From the NCBI GenBank assembly GCA_019856515.1, contig CP082230.1, forward strand, positions 3,410,001 to 3,474,000: a stretch of 64,000 bases of DNA. The letters run 5' to 3'. The translations under genes and the position numbers were made by a program. Under the pieces are notes generated by a model. The model saw nothing but the letters and a program-made list of their open reading frames with translations, ran no database searches and had not been told where the DNA came from. How positions within the stretch are numbered: the stretch's first letter is position 1; every line of letters begins with the position of its first letter. Source of the stretch: Prolixibacteraceae bacterium (lineage in GTDB: Bacteria; Bacteroidota; Bacteroidia; Bacteroidales; Prolixibacteraceae). Shown piece by piece: positions 24,828-39,607 of this stretch.

Positions 24828-25264
24828 TAGAATTGATTCTTTGTCCCCAATTATTTATCCATTACAAATATACTAGGATTATTTATCAGCCGAATTTCTT
24901 ATTCCATATGACTAGCCCTTTTCACGTTATTTAATTATACCCGAGAAGAGGTGAGTATTAAAGATATTAGACTGACTTTATACTCAGAAGACATGGTTTA
25001 AACAGGGTGTTTGGGTAGTGAAAATGTCTTAACTTTTATCTGGAACTGTTTTATCTCTACGCATGAATGACTCATAATAAATAGCTAGCTACTTATAGGT
25101 ATTATAAGAACTGATGATTGTCATGCAACTTTTGTTAGAGTGTTGATTTTATGTGTATTGTTAAAAAATGATTGCTAGTGTGAAATTATAATTATACCCG
25201 ATTGTAGGTATTATATTCAATAGTGAAAATTATTACACATAAGAATTATCCAAATAAATGATGA
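24828..25264. other. Intergenic region before the giant C11 protein gene
   Basis: About 440 AT-rich bases between divergent genes. The sequence AATTATACCCGA occurs twice (24933-24944 and 25190-25201). Otherwise I see only the two promoters at its edges. Confidence 0.45.
24865..24872 (-). promoter_or_regulatory. -7 box of the second Crp-like gene
   Basis: Minus-strand TATATTTG matches TAnnTTTG, about 38 bases before the start codon. Confidence 0.5.
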
Positions 25265-25295
25265 TTGTCCCCCCTTTATTGCCCATCTATCTTTG
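25265..25295 (+). promoter_or_regulatory. Promoter of the giant C11 protein gene
   Basis: TTG at 25265-25267 and TATCTTTG at 25288-25295 are 20 bases apart. Both elements fit the Bacteroidota sigma-A consensus (TTG ... TAnnTTTG). The predicted transcript would begin just before the ATG at 25316, which supports that ATG as the real start. Confidence 0.75.
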
Positions 25296-25315
25296 GACTT
25301 TTAAACTGTAAATTT

Positions 25316-28300
25316 ATGAGAAACGTAATTCTACTATCTTTATTTCTGTTTGTTTCTTTGGGTTCTAAAGCTCAAGTTCTTACAGAAGGTTTTGAAGACG
25401 ACCCTACCTAACGTGGATGGAGCTTGAAATCTATCCCATTGGGAAGTGATTGGTCCATCAACAATGGAACCAATAGAGGTCCTAATTCAGTATATGAAGG
25501 TGCCAATGCAGCCATGTTTAATAACTATAGCTTTCAAAAGGGAACCAGAGGAATTCTAGAGAGTCCTCTGTTTAGTCTCACTAATGTTAAATCTCCTGAA
25601 CTTACATTTTATTGGTGGAATGGAGATAGCTCATCTCAACCTGCAAGTATCGAGATAAAAGTGAATGAGGGAGATGGACAATGGAAGAGTAAAGGTCTAT
25701 ATCCATTACATTCATCTTCTGATTGGACAAAGATGTCTATACCATTAACTAACTCGGTTGTCAAGGTTCAATTAATTGGGATCTCTGATTATGGAGCGAA
25801 GAATACCTTTATAGATAAACTTGTTATTAAATCTGCAGATCCATATGTATTTAATGTATCTATTTCTGAAGTTGCCAAAGAACTAGGGTTAGGTACTGAA
25901 GTGGAAGTTCCATTTGAAATAGAAAACAGAGGTTCTTCTAGTGATACTTATGCTCTGTCGTTTGAAAATATTGAAGCTGGATGGCAGCAGAGAGTCGTAA
26001 AATCGGATGGTACCGAGATTAATAATATTTCGATTGCAAATGGAGCATCTCAATCACTGAAACTTATTGTTCGTTCACCGAATCAGGGAGCTGTAAATGG
26101 TTATATCTATGCACCATCACTTGTCATTACTTCAAGTGAAAATAGTATAACAGATAAAAGTATTAATATTTCTTTAACCACTTTAGTAGAAAACCGAACT
26201 TATCCGATAAGTGTTAATTTTAATGGCTCGAATACTTTACCTACGGGATGGAGTAGCTTGAATTTAGATAATAACAGTAATCAGTGGTCTTTATCGTCAA
26301 CAAAAGGGGTTTCGAATTCTCCTGTATTAGAATTTAACTCTAAATATAATAATGCAAATGATATTGCAGTAACTCAAGCTATGTATTTATCTTCAAGTAA
26401 GATTTATCGCTTAAGTTATCAATTAAAAGGTGGATCGAAGTATCGAAATGCCCAATTAAAGGTAAAAGTTTCTAGCGATAAGTCTACTTTATTAGATGAT
26501 AATGGTATCGTAGGCAATATATCTGACTTCTATCAATCAGATTTTGTAAAAAAAGATCATGCGATTAGTGTTTCAAAGGATGGTATTTATTTCATAGGTT
26601 TTCATACTACTTCATCGACAAACTTGTATCTTGATGACTTTGTGTTAGAGTATGCCCCGAGTTATGATGTACAACTTTCGGTTAATTCTCCAAGCAAAAC
26701 TTGGGTTGAGACAGAGCCTTTATTGTACAACTTTAAAGTCGTTAATAAAGGTCAGAAACAGGATACTTATACATTATCACTAAGTAATGGTTTGACTGGA
26801 ACATTTGTTGTTGATGGGAGTGATGTGACAGAGCTTTCATTAGTTAGCGGAGAAGAAAAAGAAGTCGTTTTGACTTTGAATGGGATTAAAGGAAGTTATG
26901 CGCACCAATCTAAGATTTCACAAAAGGTGTCTATTACAAGTAGTCAATCGTCAGGTTTAACTAAAGAAGTCGATATTATTTCGACAACAATGGTTCCATT
27001 GACATATCCTTTTAAAGATGACAATAGTTCATTGAATAGTTATAATCTTTCTTCTGAAACACAAGTCGAATTATTAAAATCGACTACATCGAGCCGTAAA
27101 AATTCTGTTTGGTTGAAGGCAGATAGCAGTGAAGATGTGGATATCAATACCAACGCATTTATAGATCTTTCGAGTGCAACGACACCAACATTATATTTGG
27201 ATGTAAATGGATCATTGGGACCATTTGATGACTTTAGAGTTTTTATTATAGATCATGAAACAGGGGTAAAAGAGGAACTGGATAATACGATTTATACAGG
27301 AAGTCCTCTATTAAATGGTTCTCGTTTTAAAGCATCTTCATTTGGACAATGGGTTAACACAGGTCAGTTCGAAGATGCTGGGTGGCAAAGGTTGTTGTTT
27401 GATCTAACCAAGTATAAGGACAAAAAGATATATGTTGGAGTCGATTTTAATACTGGATATAACTCAAGAGGTGAAGGGCTTCTATTATCTAATATTCAAA
27501 TTGCCGAAGCCCCTTCATTTGTGTCTGTGGTGAAGCAAGAAACGAATTCATTAACTGAAATGATTGGTAAATGGCATACTTTATTATTTACCATTCAGAA
27601 CAAAGGATCGAAAGCAGATACTTATGATTTCTCATTTGTAAAGAATGGATGGGAAGCTACTGTTACTAAAGATGATGCAATTGTAACTTCTTGCGAAATA
27701 CTACCTTCAGAAAGTCAGATCTTTAAATTAAAGATTAGAGCAAAAGAGGGAGAAGTTGTAGCTGGTAATGTGGATAATATTGTGGTGGAGGTCACATCAC
27801 AGGGTAATTCCGAATTACAGGAGTTAACTTGGCAAACGAAGTCGTATGGAGTGTTAGATATTCCATATTATGAAGGTTTCGAAGATGCAAACTCAACGAA
27901 CCTTTATGGTTGGAGAAGCATCAATATTAATGGTGATCAAAAAGAGTGGGAGATTGATGATTCTTATCATTCACAAAATTCAAAGAGATGTGTATCGATC
28001 ATCAACTCTTATACTTCTTCTCCAATGGACGATTGGATCTGTAGTGCTCCAGTTAAACTAAAGAAGGGGCAGAAATATAGAATAATTTCCAATATAAGAG
28101 GGGTTAATACAAAAACGGAGAAGTATAGTGTTGTGTTATTTAATTCTCATGATGTAGAGGTTTCTGTATTACAAGATAATGTTGAAGTCTCAAGAAATAC
28201 ATATGAGCTTACATCTGATGAATTTACGGTGTCTAATGATGGAGTATACTATTGGGGTTATCATGGAACAAGTGATGCTGCTTCTAGTGGATTAGCTATT

Positions 28301-31300
28301 GACAATATCTCTATCGATAAGGTACTCCCGAATGATTTAAAACTAGAATCATTAAAACATAATGCATCGAGTTTTATACAAGTAACTAATGATATTACTT
28401 TTGAGGTAGTTATAAGCAACAATGGTGATAATGCTCAAAGTGGCAATACGGTTAAAGTATATAATAAATCAACTTTAATTGAGACATTACACTTACCTAC
28501 AATTGAGAAGCAACAAAGTCATACCCTTACTTATCAATGGCACGCTAATGAGAAAGGAATGCATGCTATTAAGTTTGTGTTATCGGATGATGATAACCTA
28601 AGTAATAATCGATTAACTGAAAGCGTATCAGTACTTGCTGAACATGTCTTACTTGATGATTTTGAAGGAACTGCTTTCCCTTCTACCGATTGGCAGAACC
28701 TCAAAATGACTAAATCTACTTGGAGTCTTTATAAGAGTGATTCTTACAAAGGAAGTAATCATGCAAGGTTGAAAGCTAATTATAGTTATGCAAGCGAATC
28801 TCGTTTGGTTACACCTAAAGTCGTTGGAGATGGTGTTACTCCATTGGTATTTTATGCAAGAGCCTCTTCTTCATCAAATCAATTAACGATAGAAAAGAGT
28901 ATTGATGGCTCAACTTTCACATCAATAATGGATGTCGATCTTACAGATGAATACCAGAAAATCGAAATTTTATTGGCTAAAGAAGAGGAAGTTTATATTG
29001 CATTTCATGGTGTGACAGAAGCAAAGTATAGAGCTTTTATTAGTGTCGATTATGTGAGTGGACCAACCTTAACTTCCGCATCAAAGATTGCATATAAACT
29101 AAATGATGATTTCTTAGCACAGAAGCCTTTTTCTTTTAAAGATATTCATCAGGGGGTAAGTATGCAAACTTATGATTTTGAGTTATCCAATGAGGGAAAT
29201 ACGTCCTTTAGTGTGACTTCTGAACTATTGAAATTAGAAGGAGCTAATTTAGATCAGTTTGAAGTTGTAAACACTTTACCTTTAACCGTGTCACCTAGCT
29301 CCAAAGTAACTTTGTCAGTGAGAGCTCTTGCCAACAAAGTGGGTATCCAAAATGCAAATATTGTATTCAAGGGGTCATTATTAGATGGAGATGATTACTC
29401 TAAAGTGATTCAAGTTCGAGTATTCCCTGGAGACATTACAGGGATGACTCCAAAGAAAGGTGATGAAGATGTGATATTAACACCAGTATTATCATGGGTA
29501 AATGGAGCAGGAGCTAAGACTGTGGATTTATTTTTCTCAGAAAAACTTCCATTGAGTGATGCTAATAAAATAAGTGTCTCAAATGATTTGTTTACATCTT
29601 ATCAGTTGCCCCAAAAGTTAAAGAATGGAACAAGTTATTTTTGGAAAGTCATTAACAGTGCAACGGATTCAAAAGGTACTGTTTTCTCTACAACATCAGA
29701 AGTAAATAGATTTGAAACGGAGTTAGGGGGATCCATTATTAAAACATATAGTTCCGAAAATGAAGAAACTGGACTAGGGGCTTTGCCTTTAAGTTGTGGA
29801 GTTGCTGGTTCCCCATTTTATACTTACAGCCAAAGTATATATCCTGCTTCAATGTTTTCCTCGTTAAACGGCAAACGGATTAGTCGTATTTTCTATTATT
29901 ACAATGGTGTGGTTCAAGCTGAAGAAGATATTACAATTTTTATGGCAAATACCACGAGACGTAATTTTGGAGATGGACAAAAATGGGAGCCGTATGCTAA
30001 TTTGACAAAAGTATATGAAGGACCAATGCATTTGCCAAATCAAGCTGGATGGGTCGCTATTGATTTAGAAATTCCATTTATTTATGAAGTGGGTAAGAAT
30101 TTGGTGATAGGCCTAGATTCCAATGGTCACGTATTAGGTAATGATCAAGCAGGATTTGCGATATCTCCAAAACAAGAAGAACTAGTATCTTATTATAAGA
30201 GACATCATAATGTTGATGGAAATCCTGATCCAATAACAATAGATGGAAGAGATGGTCTAATGGTATCATTTGTTCCTTCGATGCGTGTTGAGGTGATTGA
30301 TGCGCCTATTACTCCAATTATACATCATCGTTATATTAATTTTGATGCTCCAACGATTGGGCTACATGAGCATCCAAGTTATAAGTTTAATTTCAAGAAT
30401 ATAGGAGTTGGTCCATTAAATGTTACCAGTGTTGTAATTGAAGGAGTTAATAAATCAGAATTCACTGTTAAAAAGCAGTCGATTTCTATTGCAGAAACAG
30501 AAGTCGGCGAGATTCAGGTTGACTTTAACCCTGTAAATATTGGAAATAAGTCGGTTGACTTAGTCATCAATCATAATGGTCCATCTAAAGTTGTTCGTAT
30601 CCCGATTAAAGTTAATGTGACGGATGCTGAAGTGAGACATTTTCCATTCTATGAAGGGTTTGAAGGAAATCAATTCCCTGTTCCTGGATGGTCTTCACCT
30701 AATGATTCATGGCATCTCGGAAGAATAACGCATGATGGATTTGGTGCTGCTAGTGCAAATTGGAAGTATGATGGTGATGCAATATTGGTAACTCCTCCTA
30801 TTCATTTACCCGAAAACTATCAACTTTCGTTTTGGTGGATGAATAGATATTCTCCAGAACCGAGACAAGGAGCATACGACTTTACTTTTGTGGAAATAAG
30901 TTCAGATAATGGTCTAAGTTGGACGGAATTAGGATCTTATTCCACCTCTCTGATTAGTGATTCTTATCATCACATTAAAATTGATCTTTCTCCATATGCT
31001 AACCAAAGGGTATTTATTCGATGGAGGCATGATATGACTCCTGGATATGAAAACATGGCTAGAGGGGTAACAATTGATGATGTATTGATTGATGAAATAC
31101 CATTTACACCTGAAGTTGAAGGATTTCAAGTCGCAGTGGAAGACTACAATAATGTGCAGATACAATGGAATGCCCCTGTATTATCTGATCCACAAAGAAC
31201 AAATAAAGTTGAATCATATTGGTTGTATCGAGACGGTAGGCTTTTGACGAAACTAGATGAGAATACGCTAACCTATAAAGATGAGCACCTTAAACGTGGA

Positions 31301-34300
31301 GAATATGAGTATTATGTTCGAGTAAAATATGAGAAAGGTACTTCTGATGGATCATTTCCTGAGGTTGTGTTTATTGATATTGAGAATGATTTTCCTCCTA
31401 CACACCTTGATGCAGAGGTGAAAACACAATCGGATAACACGAATAATGTGTTTTTGACATGGGATCGTCCGATCAAAAAAGAGTATATCAATGTTTACCC
31501 TGAGGGGGATACTTACGGTCCAGCAAAAACGGGGAAGTATAGTGATGAACAATTGTGGGTTGCAAACTATGCTCCCAAGGGACATCATGAGGTTTCTATG
31601 ATTAAGTTTGATATAGAACAATTTAAAGGTAAAGAGATCGAGAGTGTCAAGTTAAGATTGAATCAGATTTTTATGGCCAATGACCATAATACTGAGCCTT
31701 CAAAGATTTATGCAATTGATGAATCATGGGATGAAAGTACGTTTGACTTTAGCTCAAAGATATCCTATGATGATCAAAAGGTTTGGGGAGAGTATTACTT
31801 TGGATCGAATGGATGGCAAGAAGTTGATATTACAGACCTCGTTAAAGCATGGATTTCAGGTAAACTGCCCAATAATGGATTGTGTCTCGTTGCAGCAGAA
31901 GGAGACCGTTTGAGAGTCTTTGACTCGAAAGACTGTTTTGTTCCAGAGAATCGTCCACATTTGAAAGTGGGAGTAAATGCAGAAAAGGGTAGTACTGGAA
32001 ACGATAAAGGGAAAGGTATTGGATATCGGATTTATCGTAATGGAAAAATGATTCATCAAATAGATGATTTCAAAACAACAACTTATACTGATGTAAACTT
32101 AGATCCGAACTTTTACACCTACTCTGTATCGGCACTTTATAGTTATGCTGGGGAGAGTGAAAAGAGTTCTCCTGATGTTGTAAATGTTGCATTAAATAAT
32201 ACGTCGGCATGGACTTGGATGATCTATTTATATGAAGACAATACTGGTTTAGATGGAGCCGAAGATATTAATGAGCTTGAATTCAATGGGTCCGTGCCAG
32301 GTTTGGTTAACTACATTGTTCTTTATGATGCAGATGATGATTCTAAGGATGGTGTTTATTATGTGACCAAAGATCCTGAAGGAGAAAATAACACAATAGT
32401 GTCGAAAAAGATTTCAGATATGTTTGGTGTGGATCCTAAAATGTCCGATTGGAATACTTTGGATAAATTCTTGGCTTTTGCACAAAAGAGTTTCCCTGCC
32501 GAAAGATATGGACTAACTCTTTGGGATCATGGTAATGGTATTTTTAGAGATGGAGAAGTGACTGAAAGGTCATTTGTTGGTGGTATGAACTTGTGGGAAT
32601 TAGATAAAGCGTTGGCAAATTCAGTAAAGCGTACTGGTAAGAAGATTGATATTCTAGGATTTGATTTGTGTCTACTTGGTCAAACAGAAACAGCTTATCA
32701 GGTTATGCCGTATGCAAAATACTTATTGGCTTCTGAGAAGACTGAGCCAGGAGATGGATGGGACTACAAAGTGGCATTTGAAAGAATGAATTCTAATCCA
32801 TTGATCACCAGTGAAGAGATGAGTAGATATTTGGTTACTGACTATGTGGAGAGTTACACTGTTGGTGGAAATTCGAACCCTGCAGATGTTACACAAGCGG
32901 CTACGGATTTAACCATGTATCAAAATGAATATATCTCGACATTGAATGATTTTGCTAGATCATTGATTGATCATGTGTATGATCATAAGAAAGAGATTGA
33001 AACAGCACGAGAGTTAAGTTGGTATTCGAAACGCAATAAAGATCATCGCGATTTAGGCCATTTTACAAGATTGATCATGATCAATGATCAACTTCCTCAA
33101 GCTTTAAGAGATAAAGCGAGAACTTTCTATGATGTGTACCAAAATACTATTGTAGAAAGTGGTTCTACCGGTAAAGCGAATGCATCAGTAACAGGGCATA
33201 GGGTTTGGTTTCCAAAGACTATCAGTACTGAGTTAGATAAAGAGTTGTATCTAGATCCGCTTAATTATCTAAACTTTAGTGAAACACTTTGGGATGAGTT
33301 TCTTTTTAGTTATGAAAACCCTCAAAAGAACCCGAGTGTGATGAGTGTAAACAATCAAATGTTTGATATTGATGCTTCAATTCAGACGATAACCCTTTTA
33401 GCAACTCTTGCTGGAGATGCAGAGGTTAGTTGGGAGATTAACAGCAATGTTCCATGGTTAAAGCTCTCCAAAACAAGTTACCAGAATAGTGCATCTATAT
33501 CAATTGCTGTAGATAAGAACACTGTAGAAGCCCGTGATGGGGTATTGGTGATTAATGCGGAAGGTGTTGTTGGTTGTCCAATGAAGATTATTGTTCACCA
33601 AAACAAAATGGAACTAGGTCTAAGGTCATTTGATGCATCAATTGAAGGGCCTGAGGCTAGACTTTCATGGAAATATTATGGATTTAAGGAGTTGTTTGAT
33701 CATTACAATATCCTGAAAGAAGGTAAGTCAATAACTGAAATTAGAGATGTTGATGTCAATGAGTATGTTGATCAAAGCTTCAAAAAAGGAGTTGCTGTTT
33801 ATCAATTAGAGGTGGTATTAAAAAATGGTTCGATAATTCAAAGTGATGAAAAAACTATCCGTGTCATAGATGAATTGACTATTGATAAATTACTGGTTGA
33901 AGAAGGTACTGATGCTGTCAATATCATTTGGCATACAACAAAAATTGATAAAGATGTAAGAGCATTTTTAATTTTTAGAGATGGGAAAATAATAGAAAGG
34001 ATTACAGATCTAGATTTAAGAAAGTACCAAGATAAGAATGTGGTTAAAGGCCTTCATAAATATTGGATGCAAATGGAGTACTTGTATTTAGTTTCTCCAA
34101 AAACAGAAGAAATAGAACTGGATGTACTACTTCTTTCAAGTGTATGGCCTAATAGTGAATTTAATGAAATTAAGGTGTTTCCAAACCCACTTGTTGATAG
34201 CAGGTTGCATGTAACTGTTAGTTCAGGGGTTTCCGTGGAAAGGATGGAAATTTATAATTCACAAGGTGTTTTATTATATATTCTTTACGATTTCGATAAT

Positions 34301-34402
34301 GATTTAAATATTCAGAGAAATGTAAAACTTGATACAGGTGTTTATATTCTAAGAATACATAGTTCATTGGGAATTAAAACATTTAAGTTGATCAAAAAGT
34401 AA
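25316..34402 (+). pseudogene. Giant T9SS-secreted clostripain-like (C11) protein with an in-frame stop
   Basis: One frame of 3029 codons, broken only by TAA at 25409-25411. Codons 1-31 encode a signal peptide (MRNVILLSLFLFVSLGSKAQ) and TEGFEDDPT. After the stop the frame runs on unbroken for about 2990 residues. Numbering from the TTG at 25424, the N-terminal half is a series of MAM/jelly-roll-like modules alternating with Ig-like modules that share N(R/K)G-x3-DTY (three copies). A choice-of-anchor-D-like part lies near 1660-1740 and an Fn3 module near 1895-1985. A DNRLRE-type domain lies at about 2015-2180. The peptidase C11 domain at about 2262-2630 has catalytic His2369 (LWDHGNG) and Cys2416 (FDLCLLG). 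A BACON-like domain is at 2640-2726 and a T9SS sorting domain at 2912-2992 (FPNP ... GVYILRI ... KLIKK). Without readthrough or an error in the sequence, the export signal is lost. Confidence 0.85.
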
Positions 34403-34424
34403 ATAAGTCTAAGTAGTCTTATAG

Positions 34425-34455
34425 AGGTGGGGAAACATTTGTTTTCCCACCTTTT
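34425..34455 (+). terminator. Terminator after the giant C11 protein gene
   Basis: AGGTGGGGAAAC and GTTTTCCCACCT pair (one G.T) around ATTT and are followed by TTTT. It ends only 15 bases before the SusC start. No exact -7 box lies between, so partial readthrough may supply SusCD expression. Confidence 0.85.
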
Positions 34456-34469
34456 AACGTTTTAATCGT

Positions 34470-37370
34470 ATGAAAAGAATAATTATTTGGGGTGTTCTGT
34501 CCATCTTATCTTGCCATATAAAGGGGCAAAATAAAGAAATAACAGGTGCTGTCTTTGATGGTAATACGCATGAAATAATGGTTGGAGCTACTGTATATAA
34601 TAAAAATAATAATACTGGAGTTGTAACAGATATACAGGGAAGATACAAGTTAAAAGCCAATATAGGAGATACAATAGGTGTTCGATTTATTGGATATAGA
34701 GAAAAATTTTTTTTGTGTGAAAAATCGGATAATAATAAAGTCATACTTTTCCCAGTTACGAAGATCCTAGAAGAAACGATTGTTGTTGCTTATGGCCGTC
34801 GGTCGAAGAAGAAATTAAATGGAGCAGTAACCTCTATTAATGATAATAATCTACGTACATCTGTTTCAAATATAGGTGCTTTGCTTCAAGGTAGGGTAAG
34901 TGGGTTGCAGTCTATAACTGAATCGGGAGATCCAAATGCTGCTCCCATTATGTTTTTAAGAGGGGCAAGTTCTGTTCATGCATACGCTGGGCCTTTGTAT
35001 GTTTTGAATGGATTGGTTGTCGAGGCTTCTTTTATACAAAAGATAACCCCTTCAAATATCTCGTCAATATCAATTCTTAAGGATGCGACGGCAACAGCTT
35101 TGTATGGTTCTAGAGGGGCGAATGGAGTAATTGTTATAGAAACCAAACAAGCAAAAACAAAAGGGTTTCATGTGGGGGCATCTGTTACCTATGGTTTAAG
35201 GTACCCTAATTTGCTACCTGTTGACTTGATGAGCTCAAAAGAGAAATTACAATATGAAGTCTTACTGGGGATTAAAAGATTGTCAGAGGAGCGTATTGAT
35301 GAGTTGGCAGCCAATCCAACAAATTGGGAAAAAGAAGTTTTGAGAAGAGGTACTTCTACAGAATTGGGTGTAAATATCGAAGGAGGAAAAGGTAAAGCCG
35401 CTTTCCGTCATCAGCTATCGTATCGAAAAGATGTGGGTACTTTACAAAATTCTTCATTGGATAATTTCTCATTTACAAGTCGATTGAATCATCACCTAGG
35501 AGATAAAATCACCACCTCTTTGTTCTTCTATGGGAATTACCTAGATGCTAAGAATCCTACAGGTATAGGTGATAAATTGGTGAAAAATAGTCCTGTAATT
35601 CAGGCATATTTGAATAATCCTTATGATGCACCTAGAGATGAAAAAGGAAATTATATTTCAACATCTTTAGGACCGAATGCAATACGTGATTTAGAAATGA
35701 TTAACAATGAAACAAAAACGTATCATTTGCGAATGCAAGGCAATTTTAAATGGGATATTTTAGCAGGATTTTATTTTACAGGGTTGTACTCTTGGAATTA
35801 TTCTCATTCTCTATTAGATCAATTTAATCCTCCTGGAATTAGTATGTATCAATTAGATCCTTCATCTTCAATTCAAGGAGATAAAAAGAGAAGTTATTCA
35901 GGCAATACACGTTTACAGTCATCAAACCAATTGCATTATAAACATCATCTTTCGAATCATCATATTGAGTTGATGGGGGCCTTTGAGACTGACTACCGAA
36001 AGGAAGATGGCTTTATCGCTTTAGCCAAAGGGTATGTATCTCCATTACTTTCTTCTTTGTCTTCAGCAGAAAAGCCATTTCAAACAGCAGAGCGATATTG
36101 GGAACGAAATATGCTGAGTTATATATCATTTATAAAGTATGATTGGAATAATATTATCTTCTTTGATGGATCATTTAGAAGGGATGGCTCCTCTGTTTTT
36201 GGTAAGAATAACCCCTACTCGAACTTCTACTCTTTAGGTTCTGGATTAGATCTATCTGGTTGTGTTTTTAATGAGAACGTAGATCTATTTAAAATAAGAT
36301 TCAGTTATGGAACGTCTGGAAATGAAAGTATTTCCCCGTACCAAACAATGAAGTTATATAAGTTTAATCAATATTATAGCGGTAAAAAAGCTGGTGCTGC
36401 AAAACAGGTTGGGAATAAAGCATTAGGTTGGGAGAAAAGTCTATCCAAAAGTATAGGATTTGATTTTTTGTCTAAAGGTAGCAAGTATGGTATCAGTCTT
36501 GATTGGTATGAACAATATACCGATGATTTACTCCTAGATGTACAACTATCTCGATTGTACGGTTTCTCTACGAAGATGATGAACGCGGGTGCTGTACGTA
36601 ATCGTGGTTTTGAAACTTCTTTTACTGCAACGCCATGGACGAAAGGCTTTTGGAGTTTAACCTTTGAAGCACAATATTCGTATAATGATAATGAGGTAAC
36701 ACATACACCTAACGGAGAAGATATAGTCAATAATTTTACGATTATCAGAGAAGGAGAGGCCTTAGGTAGTGTTTATTTGGTTCCTTATGGAGGTGTTAAT
36801 GTATCGAACGGATCACCAATTTGGGTTAAGAAGGATGGTCGTTTAACTGAGACTTATGATCAATCAGATGCCGTTGTGATTGGTACAGGAATACCACCAC
36901 ATAATGGATCATTCAGAGTTCGTCTTCAAAATGAAAATCTTGAAATAGCTGTATTATTTACAGGTGCAGCTGGCAACAAAGTAGTGAACAATAATCGATA
37001 TTTCTTTGAATCAGATGGTGAGTTTATGATATATAACCAAGACCGCAGGTTATTAACTGAGGCTTGGGAAATACCAGGTGATATGACAAAGATCCCCAAA
37101 CAAGTTGCAAATGGAAATAACCACCAGATGTCAACTCGCTATGTTGAATCGGGTAACTATATAAAACTTAAGAATGTCAGAATTGCTTATAGTATTGGTC
37201 GTCATGATTTTGGCTTTTTACCTTTTAATACGACATTAAGTGTTGAGGCAACCAATTTATATACGTGGACCAATTACAGTGGAATAGATCCAGAAATGGC
37301 ACGTTCTGTCGATGCTTTCCGATATCCATCCAATCAATCTATCTTTTTCGGTATAACAATGAATTTTTAA
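34470..37370 (+). CDS. SusC-family TonB-dependent transporter
   Basis: A 966-residue outer-membrane importer with a signal peptide (residues 1-19). A carboxypeptidase-D-regulatory-like domain spans about 22-95 (ITGAVFDGNTHEIMVGATV ... VRFIGYRE). The SusC plug at about 105-230 carries LLQGRVSGLQ, FLRGASSVHAYAGPLYVLNG and SISILKDATATALYGSRGANGVIVIET. A long barrel ends FGITMNF. It is followed 10 bases later by SusD. The pair forms a lidded importer for peptides or glycans. Being next to a giant secreted protease suggests a peptide ligand; this is inference. Confidence 0.95.
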   Translation: MKRIIIWGVLSILSCHIKGQNKEITGAVFDGNTHEIMVGATVYNKNNNTGVVTDIQGRYKLKANIGDTIGVRFIGYREKFFLCEKSDNNKVILFPVTKILEETIVVAYGRRSKKKLNGAVTSINDNNLRTSVSNIGALLQGRVSGLQSITESGDPNAAPIMFLRGASSVHAYAGPLYVLNGLVVEASFIQKITPSNISSISILKDATATALYGSRGANGVIVIETKQAKTKGFHVGASVTYGLRYPNLLPVDLMSSKEKLQYEVLLGIKRLSEERIDELAANPTNWEKEVLRRGTSTELGVNIEGGKGKAAFRHQLSYRKDVGTLQNSSLDNFSFTSRLNHHLGDKITTSLFFYGNYLDAKNPTGIGDKLVKNSPVIQAYLNNPYDAPRDEKGNYISTSLGPNAIRDLEMINNETKTYHLRMQGNFKWDILAGFYFTGLYSWNYSHSLLDQFNPPGISMYQLDPSSSIQGDKKRSYSGNTRLQSSNQLHYKHHLSNHHIELMGAFETDYRKEDGFIALAKGYVSPLLSSLSSAEKPFQTAERYWERNMLSYISFIKYDWNNIIFFDGSFRRDGSSVFGKNNPYSNFYSLGSGLDLSGCVFNENVDLFKIRFSYGTSGNESISPYQTMKLYKFNQYYSGKKAGAAKQVGNKALGWEKSLSKSIGFDFLSKGSKYGISLDWYEQYTDDLLLDVQLSRLYGFSTKMMNAGAVRNRGFETSFTATPWTKGFWSLTFEAQYSYNDNEVTHTPNGEDIVNNFTIIREGEALGSVYLVPYGGVNVSNGSPIWVKKDGRLTETYDQSDAVVIGTGIPPHNGSFRVRLQNENLEIAVLFTGAAGNKVVNNNRYFFESDGEFMIYNQDRRLLTEAWEIPGDMTKIPKQVANGNNHQMSTRYVESGNYIKLKNVRIAYSIGRHDFGFLPFNTTLSVEATNLYTWTNYSGIDPEMARSVDAFRYPSNQSIFFGITMNF

Positions 37371-37380
37371 AAAGGATATT

Positions 37381-38760
37381 ATGAAATATATTCTATCAAT
37401 ATTATCAATATTTACGCTCATCACAGGTTGTACATTATCCTTAGATTATCAACCTCGGGATGCTTTTGGTGAGCAAATGGCATTTAAAGATTATGCATCT
37501 TGGGAGGTAATGGTTAGGGGATGCTATAGTTCATTAGGTGATGAAGCTTTATATGGTGGTTTCTTATCTATGGGAATAGGTGATCTCTTGACTGATAATG
37601 TGGAGGCAAGTCCTCAAAATAATGGAGAGTATCAACAAATATATCATTGGACTTTTCACGCTATGAACCCACAACTGACAGCAATATGGGAAAAAGCCTA
37701 TCATACAGTATATCTTGCAAATACGATCATAGACCAATCTTTCCCTACTAACGATTATGAGAATCATAAAGAACGATATGAGCAGATGAAAGCCGAAGCA
37801 AAGCTAATACGTTCTATGGTGCATTTTGACTTAATCCGTCTTTTTTCTTCTTATCCGTTTGATGAAAATTCAATGGGAGTACCATATATCAAGCAACGAG
37901 TTTTTTCATTATATCAAAGAGAAACCATAGTTTCTAATCTTTCCAATTGTATCGATGATATTAATGAGGCATTACCACTACTTGATAAATCAACTTCTCC
38001 GACAACAGCCAATCAAAGAGTAGCCTATTATTTGTTAGCCAAGATATATGAGTATCAGGATCAAAAAGATAAGGCAATAAATACGTTACTACATATAGAT
38101 CTCAACTCGAGTGATTGGATAGACCAAAGCAAGTATCGTGATTCATGGACTTCATATACATCGGAAGGAGTTTTGTTTGAAATAATTAAAACGGATAAGG
38201 ATAATCCCCAAAATGCATGGATATATTATGACACAAGAAATCAGAGACCTAAGTGGTATGCACCTTCTACTGTTGTAAATAGTTATGGTGACTCTGATGT
38301 ACGTAAAAATCTATTTTTCCGAAAAGTTGGAAGCAACTATGAGATAACTAAGTATATGGGTCAACCAGGGGCAGATATGCCAAATGGTGGAACAGTCAAG
38401 CTTTTAAGAATGGCAGAAGTACACTTTCTATTATGGTTTTTACAGATTGACAATGGAGATGTAACAACATCAGTTGTAGAGGATCTAAATGTATATCTCA
38501 AACAGAGAGGTGAAAGTCCATATACTTTTGTGGATCGCTCCTCTTTGCTTGATTTTATTGAAAAGGAATATAGAAAGGAATTTGTGTATGAGTCGAAACA
38601 TTTCTTTCGCCTCAAAATACGTCAACAGAAAATAGTACGTTTGATTTCTACTCAGACGATGTTACTTCCTGCAAATGATCATCGATTTACGATGCCTATA
38701 CCTTCAGTTGAAATGAATGCAAACAAAAAAATGAAACAAAATGATGGATATGAGTCGTAA
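37381..38760 (+). CDS. SusD-family surface lipoprotein
   Basis: A 459-residue SusD/RagB protein. The lipoprotein signal ends at lipobox LITGC (Cys near residue 17). The body is helical with TPR-like segments (ANTIIDQSF, QMKAEAKLIRSMVHFDLIRLF) and a C-terminal LLRMAEVHFLLWF ... RKEFVYESKHFFRLK pattern. It acts as the lid of the preceding SusC. Its stop overlaps the start of the following lipoprotein gene, indicating tight coupling. Confidence 0.95.
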   Translation: MKYILSILSIFTLITGCTLSLDYQPRDAFGEQMAFKDYASWEVMVRGCYSSLGDEALYGGFLSMGIGDLLTDNVEASPQNNGEYQQIYHWTFHAMNPQLTAIWEKAYHTVYLANTIIDQSFPTNDYENHKERYEQMKAEAKLIRSMVHFDLIRLFSSYPFDENSMGVPYIKQRVFSLYQRETIVSNLSNCIDDINEALPLLDKSTSPTTANQRVAYYLLAKIYEYQDQKDKAINTLLHIDLNSSDWIDQSKYRDSWTSYTSEGVLFEIIKTDKDNPQNAWIYYDTRNQRPKWYAPSTVVNSYGDSDVRKNLFFRKVGSNYEITKYMGQPGADMPNGGTVKLLRMAEVHFLLWFLQIDNGDVTTSVVEDLNVYLKQRGESPYTFVDRSSLLDFIEKEYRKEFVYESKHFFRLKIRQQKIVRLISTQTMLLPANDHRFTMPIPSVEMNANKKMKQNDGYES

Positions 38761-39607
38761 GTATATAAGTATATTCTGGGTGCTCTGTTGCATAATGCTT
38801 TATTCTTGTCAACAAAAAAAGGATGTCTTTTATGATGGTCTCCCCCAAATACAGTTCTCCAAACATATCGCAAATATCGAGATGTCCCCTAAAGTAAAAG
38901 ATATAGAGCTAAAAGTGGAACTTGTATATGGTCAGATTGAAGAGAACTTAGATTTTCATATTGAGGTTGAAAGGATCTCAGGAAGTTCGGAACTTAGTTT
39001 GGATACTAATATATTTAGGTTTGAAAAGGGAATGTATGGTTTGTCAATTAAAATTCCTGTTGATTATGAGACGATATATGATAAAACAAAATGGAGTCTC
39101 AAGCTCGTTTCAAATAATCGTGAATCTCTTACCATTGCGCATCGTTCTACTTTTGAGTTGACTGTTACTCCTTATGATTGGACTGAAGACATATCAGGTA
39201 AGTATCAACTATCTTTTAAGGATCACTATATGAAGAAACATCTTTATCGTGTCGATGTGGAGTATGTTCGAGATCAAGATAATCAATTTATCCGCATTTC
39301 GGACTTACCTGTTTGGTCATTCTATGGTGGCCCCAAAAAGTATCCACAGAGAATATCTTTTAAGATAAATACGATCGAAAGAAACAACGTTTTTATGGGG
39401 ATTGACCAAATGCTATTAGGGACTTATACAAGTTATAAAAAGTGGTTTATGAGACGTAATTATGGAGACTTCTATATCGAAAAAACGGAGGTTCAGAGCT
39501 GTGTATATGACAAAAGTGATCAAAGTATTTTATTGAGCTATAGGTCCTTCTTGACTAAAGGGAAGAAATATGAGCTTAAAGGTGTAACGCTTAAGAAGGA
39601 GTTATAG
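38741..39607 (+). CDS. DUF4843-like lipoprotein
   Basis: About 288 residues. The start is 38741, 38744 or 38750 within MMDMSRKY. All of these give a signal peptide ending at lipobox MLYSC. The mature part starts QQKKDVFYDGLPQIQFSK and contains the IELKVELVYGQ / DFHIEVE pattern that I associate with DUF4843 proteins encoded next to SusCD pairs. The gene overlaps the SusD stop by 20 bases. Probably an accessory surface lipoprotein of the SusCD importer. Confidence 0.7.
   Translation: MMDMSRKYISIFWVLCCIMLYSCQQKKDVFYDGLPQIQFSKHIANIEMSPKVKDIELKVELVYGQIEENLDFHIEVERISGSSELSLDTNIFRFEKGMYGLSIKIPVDYETIYDKTKWSLKLVSNNRESLTIAHRSTFELTVTPYDWTEDISGKYQLSFKDHYMKKHLYRVDVEYVRDQDNQFIRISDLPVWSFYGGPKKYPQRISFKINTIERNNVFMGIDQMLLGTYTSYKKWFMRRNYGDFYIEKTEVQSCVYDKSDQSILLSYRSFLTKGKKYELKGVTLKKEL

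Follow-up and report, generated by a model that had tools for sequence, protein, structure and literature searches.

The closest described counterparts of the gene analyzed here are bacterial nonsense pseudogenes, clostripain-family (C11) peptidases with a T9SS tail, and two Shigella genes that hold premature stops. According to one account, T9SS cargo carries a signal peptide for Sec together with a C-terminal domain for the T9SS (PMC5445135). For Shigella dgcQ and dgcN, one report describes premature stops and yet a band of full-length size, the cause of which its authors call unclear (PMC11327459). Reinitiation is considered frequent in prokaryotes by a further source (PMC5972666). The present gene lies in a stretch of 64,000 nucleotides from a Prolixibacteraceae bacterium, which we call the window and whose coordinates are used below unless the contig of the window's own genome (G000:C1) or a relative is named. 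We consider it probable, at roughly 70%, that an in-frame TAA near the start of this gene is genuine and marks a nonsense allele of very recent origin and familiar type. The locus is best read as not being a new system, and new decoding is not supported.

An in-frame stop codon in a giant protease gene

The TAA at 25409-25411, reported in the first-pass annotation to lie in frame with ATG 25316, is confirmed from both the sequence and its translation. The 31-codon frame (25316..25411, +) reads MRNVILLSLFLFVSLGSKAQVLTEGFEDDPT and then TAA, and covers a signal peptide and the first mature residues. Behind the stop, the same frame continues for 2996 codons with no other stop and no frameshift, much as the initial estimate of about 2990 codons had it, and across 3029 codons (both stops counted) the only two stops are this TAA and the terminal TAA at 34400-34402. 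Around 3000 open codons, with coding composition both 5′ and 3′ of the stop, are beyond chance. Later in-frame starts within 120 codons are TTG 25424 (the first), TTG 25439, ATG 25514, GTG 25661 and ATG 25733; from TTG 25424, the remaining protease frame comprises 2992 codons (25424..34402, +) by ORF reading and sister comparison.

Its domain content identifies the predicted product as a giant protease of the clostripain family (C11) that ends in a T9SS-type tail. The Peptidase_C11 (clostripain family) domain at 32258..33301 (+) scores 121.4 bits in Pfam against a cut-off of 25.8, and the stop at codon 32 lies ahead of the functional domains. Codons for the catalytic positions are present (His 32528-32530, Cys 32669-32671), both motif residues are invariant across an alignment with four full-length homologues, and a solved C11 protease aligns over both motifs; we take the two residues to be the catalytic dyad. 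Domain search also finds a CBM96-like domain (31541..31933, +) and several Ig-like or related repeat domains in the frame. The T9SS C-terminal sorting domain (Por_Secre_tail, Pfam) that had been noted at the end of the frame is found at 34175..34390 (+), slightly under the curated level: its scores of 26.5 and 18.3 bits fall short of the Pfam cut-off of 27 bits, which 42 other T9SS tails in the genome exceed. The signal peptide and this below-cut-off tail share one frame, with the TAA between them.

The 5′ end and the downstream genes

The promoter stands as first described, with TTG at 25265-25267, a 20-base spacer and TAtcTTTG at 25288-25295, and was judged against what we take to be the Bacteroidota -33/-7 consensus. 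Conservation of this promoter-like element (25265..25295, +) extends to the sister genome. In four genomes of the genus, a search for a 32-base pattern, leaving two positions free and allowing up to three mismatches, gave a single hit each in the window's genome and the sister genome and none in the two others. The signal peptide expected after ATG 25316 is likewise borne out, the frame opening with MRNVILLSLFLFVSLGSKA and continuing with QVLTEGFEDDPT. By eye, it is a predicted Sec signal peptide of 19 residues (25316..25372, +), ending ...SKA before Q, and its 12-mer VILLSLFLFVSL has a mean hydropathy of 3.0.

Much of this 5′ end (window region 25265-25375) is shared with the sister gene at the level of single bases. 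Thirty of 32 promoter bases, spacer included, are identical, and third-position identity over the first 20 codons is 0.85, the top value of 18 genes with less than 70% protein identity (the runner-up among these 18 of 48 genes reaches 0.60, and the mean of the 48 genes is 0.61). The unusually conserved 5′ end may hold an operator or a translation-control element.

Following the protease are intact genes for a SusC-like TonB-dependent receptor (34470..37370, +) and a SusD-like protein (37381..38760, +), both recognized by domain and sister comparison, then a gene for a 288-aa protein with no Pfam match that is 43% identical to its sister-locus counterpart (38741..39607, +), and next nadA. The same gene order, intact, lies 3′ of the protease in the sister genome. 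The protease gene appears to head a protease-SusC-SusD operon, and the locus probably serves protein breakdown outside the cell and peptide import. Between the protease and the SusC-like gene is a 14-pair hairpin (34423..34454, +; fold z -5.8) that a simple terminator scan does not list. The sister hairpin at L011 18995-19024 has 13 pairs and a z of -5.5, and its bases differ while the pairing is kept; the element is perhaps an attenuator or mRNA stabilizer that sets protease against SusC levels.

Relatives and the column of the stop codon

Relatives of the gene are few in the genomes searched. The 392 N-terminal residues behind the stop, used as a query against 61 genomes, matched in four: the window's own, G003 (56%) and, weakly and partially, G001 and G039. 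The C11 part matched in five of 120 family genomes, the window's own included, and only the match in G003 was close (78%). This sister locus, L011 (G003:C8), is JAOARB010000022.1 of the MAG Prolixibacteraceae bacterium McBI.27, of the same genus. The sister gene starts at L011 9887 behind the same promoter, has a matching signal peptide and runs for 3028 codons with no internal stop. Protein searches, in each of which the best approximately 8000 candidates by word sharing were scored, returned among the scored candidates one protein matching the N-terminal part (P0001, from the sister MAG) and seven matching the C-terminal part; a plasmid DNA search gave no match. Homologue counts here use the full-length P0001-P0004 (3014-3207 aa) and leave out P0005-P0007, which are shorter or remote, as well as L012, a 4.8-kb contig with 38% identity over query residues 2017-2194.

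All four full-length homologues hold a sense residue at the column of the stop. These residues are Ser, Ser, Gly and Ser, which leaves the initial guess of an ancestral TTA (Leu) codon unsupported. Signal peptides, judged by eye, are found in three of the four: P0003 and P0004 show them, and that of P0001 appears in its DNA. P0002 is annotated from a Met adjoining the mature start, so that its signal peptide cannot be judged. A homologue that starts naturally at the TTG and lacks a signal peptide was not seen among them.

The reading frame behind the stop shows no sign of release from selection. The codon-level comparison uses one close relative, the sister gene, whose protein aligns over 3026 columns at 63% identity, with 4 gap columns. 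For this pair, dN is 0.28 (lowest, at 0.10, in the catalytic-domain segment) and dS about 1.8, which is saturated; by these estimates the pair is under purifying selection. Relative-rate counts with three outgroups (181 versus 180, 168 versus 177 and 197 versus 176) give no excess change on the window lineage. After the stop, 26964 single changes are possible across the 2996 codons, 1442 of which would create a further stop, and none has been taken; if the gene has been evolving neutrally, the stop is therefore very young. The corresponding 95% bound on its age is less than 0.0062 substitutions per site, or less than 0.0028 with an indel ratio of 0.1; this calculation takes every base change to be equally frequent and sets the indel ratio to 0, 0.05 or 0.1. 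A gene very recently dead, a wrong base and a gene still at work all fit this integrity.

Gene damage and repeats elsewhere in the genome

Other interrupted genes were observed in the same genome. A 131-bp element (both TA copies included) splits two SusC-like genes, at G000:C1 213767-213897 and 5050346-5050476. The element ends TAAGTAC...GTACTTA (AGTAC/GTACT), and the net insert in these genes is 129 nt, so that the frame resumes behind it. By its sequence it looks like a TA-targeting miniature inverted-repeat element, presumably of Tc1/mariner or IS630 type. Its end pattern has seven copies in the genome, compared with one for a reversed control pattern, and none in three relatives of the genus; the copies measure 126, 131 (five) and 133 bp and by eye form two or more subfamilies. 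Another match to the C11 family, at G000:C1 4028716-4029201 (-), contains an in-frame TGA a short way ahead of the His motif; approximately 4 kb away, at 4032724, lies a further partial C11 match. Together, the split SusC-like genes and this TGA make a real nonsense allele in the protease less surprising.

Twelve tRNA-Lys(UUU) genes of the genome stand in tandem at an exact spacing of 121 bases (G000:C1 4477514-4478917). There are thirteen Ile-Ala tRNA pairs, several of them in tandem at exactly 5238 bases (among them G000:C1 2960764-2971418, 3340990-3346406, 3523479-3528895, 3821432-3826848 and 4066175-4071591), which suggests about 13 rRNA operons, several in tandem.

Possible sources of the stop codon

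There are several possible explanations for the TAA. Besides a real nonsense allele, the first is a sequencing or assembly base error, in which case the strain itself would carry a sense codon and an intact gene. We regard this as unlikely, and it is the alternative that survives best. One difference in a gene with no other decay is exactly the signature of one error, and isolated substitution errors are invisible to gene-level checks. A generally poor assembly is rejected on the basis of a comparison in which 94 ORFs of sister contig C8, each 120 aa or longer, were set against 304 kb around the window. Matches were found for 57 of these ORFs (37 had none). Each of the 53 with 40% identity or more aligns in a single piece that spans 90% or more of its length, a measure that damage in the last tenth would escape. 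The best alignments of five of the 57 hold a stop; four of these stops precede a conserved Met that is likely the start, leaving only the one in the protease. Scanning the 304 kb alone for coding potential flagged five stops, and the scan retrained on 704 kb flagged 18, an earlier call at 3541804 (short frames) having dropped out. Inspected by eye, ten of the 18 fall where two neighbor genes join and a Met follows after a few codons, six have frames below about 110 codons on both sides, one lies in a transposase-like remnant (4906692) and the last is the protease TAA, which alone among them combines a long frame behind it, no ATG for a restart in the next few codons and a place outside any remnant. 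The absence of frameshifts from 53 matched genes and the lone internal stop make widespread error unlikely; a single base error may still have occurred. The apparently clean assembly, its single contig with 99.57% completeness, and the nonsense and insertion damage apparent elsewhere, by which damage as such is not odd, all tell against an error here.

Second, the TAA could be read functionally, with an amino acid inserted at the codon often enough to give exported protease. Such recoding was one of the options raised at the outset; it gained no positive support and we reject it as very improbable. In its favor are the downstream frame, which the relative-rate counts show to be unrelaxed, and the precedent of a full-length band despite premature stops reported for dgcQ and dgcN (PMC11327459). 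Against it, the stop occurs in none of the four full-length homologues, and the region around it has no unusual RNA structure (fold z-score 0.64). No suppressor tRNA is among the tRNAs found: the ARAGORN output over loci covering the Rfam tRNA matches has no anticodon that reads TAA, the Rfam model having at least 127 matches with the best 150 of 462 candidates scored, such that an atypical tRNA could escape. Three release-factor-family genes are all open. Additionally, TAA is the commonest terminator, closing 201 of the 323 ORFs that reach 250 codons (TAG 90, TGA 32), and it is also the protease gene's own terminal stop. A weaker form of the same idea, to which we give an equally small chance, is that the TAA is tolerated, with few ribosomes reading through and a costly protease made at a low level or in few cells; such low-level readthrough would explain the undiminished constraint on the rest of the gene.

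Third, reinitiation at TTG 25424 (or 25439) might purposely yield a cytoplasmic protease, which seems to us still a little less probable. TTG 25424 lies only 12 bases 3′ of the stop, and reinitiation is described as frequent in prokaryotes (PMC5972666). The aligned position in the sister gene is not a start codon, however, and with signal peptides in three of four homologues a natural TTG start is rejected. The product would end in an export domain and yet lack a Sec signal peptide: its best 12-mer has a mean hydropathy of 1.0, compared with 3.0 in the signal peptide, and this lack of a hydrophobic export segment supports the early view that a TTG-started protein could not leave the cytoplasm. 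Since T9SS cargo is described in one source as needing the Sec signal peptide (PMC5445135), the reinitiated product would be missing one of two export signals.

Last and least, a phase- or population-variable switch at the site, also raised initially, is rejected as having almost no chance: between 24900 and 25800, a search for repeats found two direct families and a palindrome, all upstream of the gene, and an imperfect inverted pair (25029-25044 / 25650-25665; 16 nt, 88% complementary, 605 nt apart) that does bracket promoter, signal peptide and stop, and the promoter spacer has a six-C run (25269-25274), but the pair is short, imperfect and maybe due to chance, flipping the segment between its arms would reverse the entire 5′ end and could not alter the TAA, the stop itself has no homopolymer or short repeat by eye, and the 5′ region has no second copy in the genome, its only other match across four genomes of the genus being the sister gene.

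A probable very young nonsense allele and its meaning

The option of a very young pseudogene, also proposed from the start, fits everything found, and we infer a real allele, without function and fixed in the strain. Under this reading, the giant clostripain-family protease gene, whose product is probably exported by the T9SS, would have undergone a recent point mutation that made its codon 32 a TAA. Translation from ATG 25316 would then end after 31 residues, scarcely more than the signal peptide, and no exported protease would be made. A protein reinitiated at TTG 25424 or further along would have no export signal, and the remainder of the gene would have had too little time to decay. Because the protease is first in the apparent operon, polarity may allow the stop to depress expression of the SusC and SusD uptake genes as well.

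If real, the allele cleanly captures the first step of gene loss, within a protease-SusCD locus whose genome seems to hold further broken genes for surface nutrition. A secreted protease is a shared good, and loss alleles would therefore be expected. For annotation, the 2992-residue TTG-start protein is, as the record stands, predicted not to be exported.

Compared with known systems, the gene has the single premature stop, the intact remainder and the intact orthologue at the same place that are common to bacterial nonsense pseudogenes, and nothing essential differs; it is very large and has decayed very little. Much like Shigella dgcQ and dgcN as reported (PMC11327459), it combines an early in-frame stop with an otherwise intact frame, whereas it is known from sequence alone and its stop is not conserved. 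With clostripain-family C11 peptidases that carry a T9SS tail it shares the C11 His and Cys, the repeats and the sorting domain (partly below cut-off), and it differs from them in its approximately 3000 residues and in adjoining a SusC/SusD pair; four proteins annotated at 3014-3207 aa are all the close kin that turned up.
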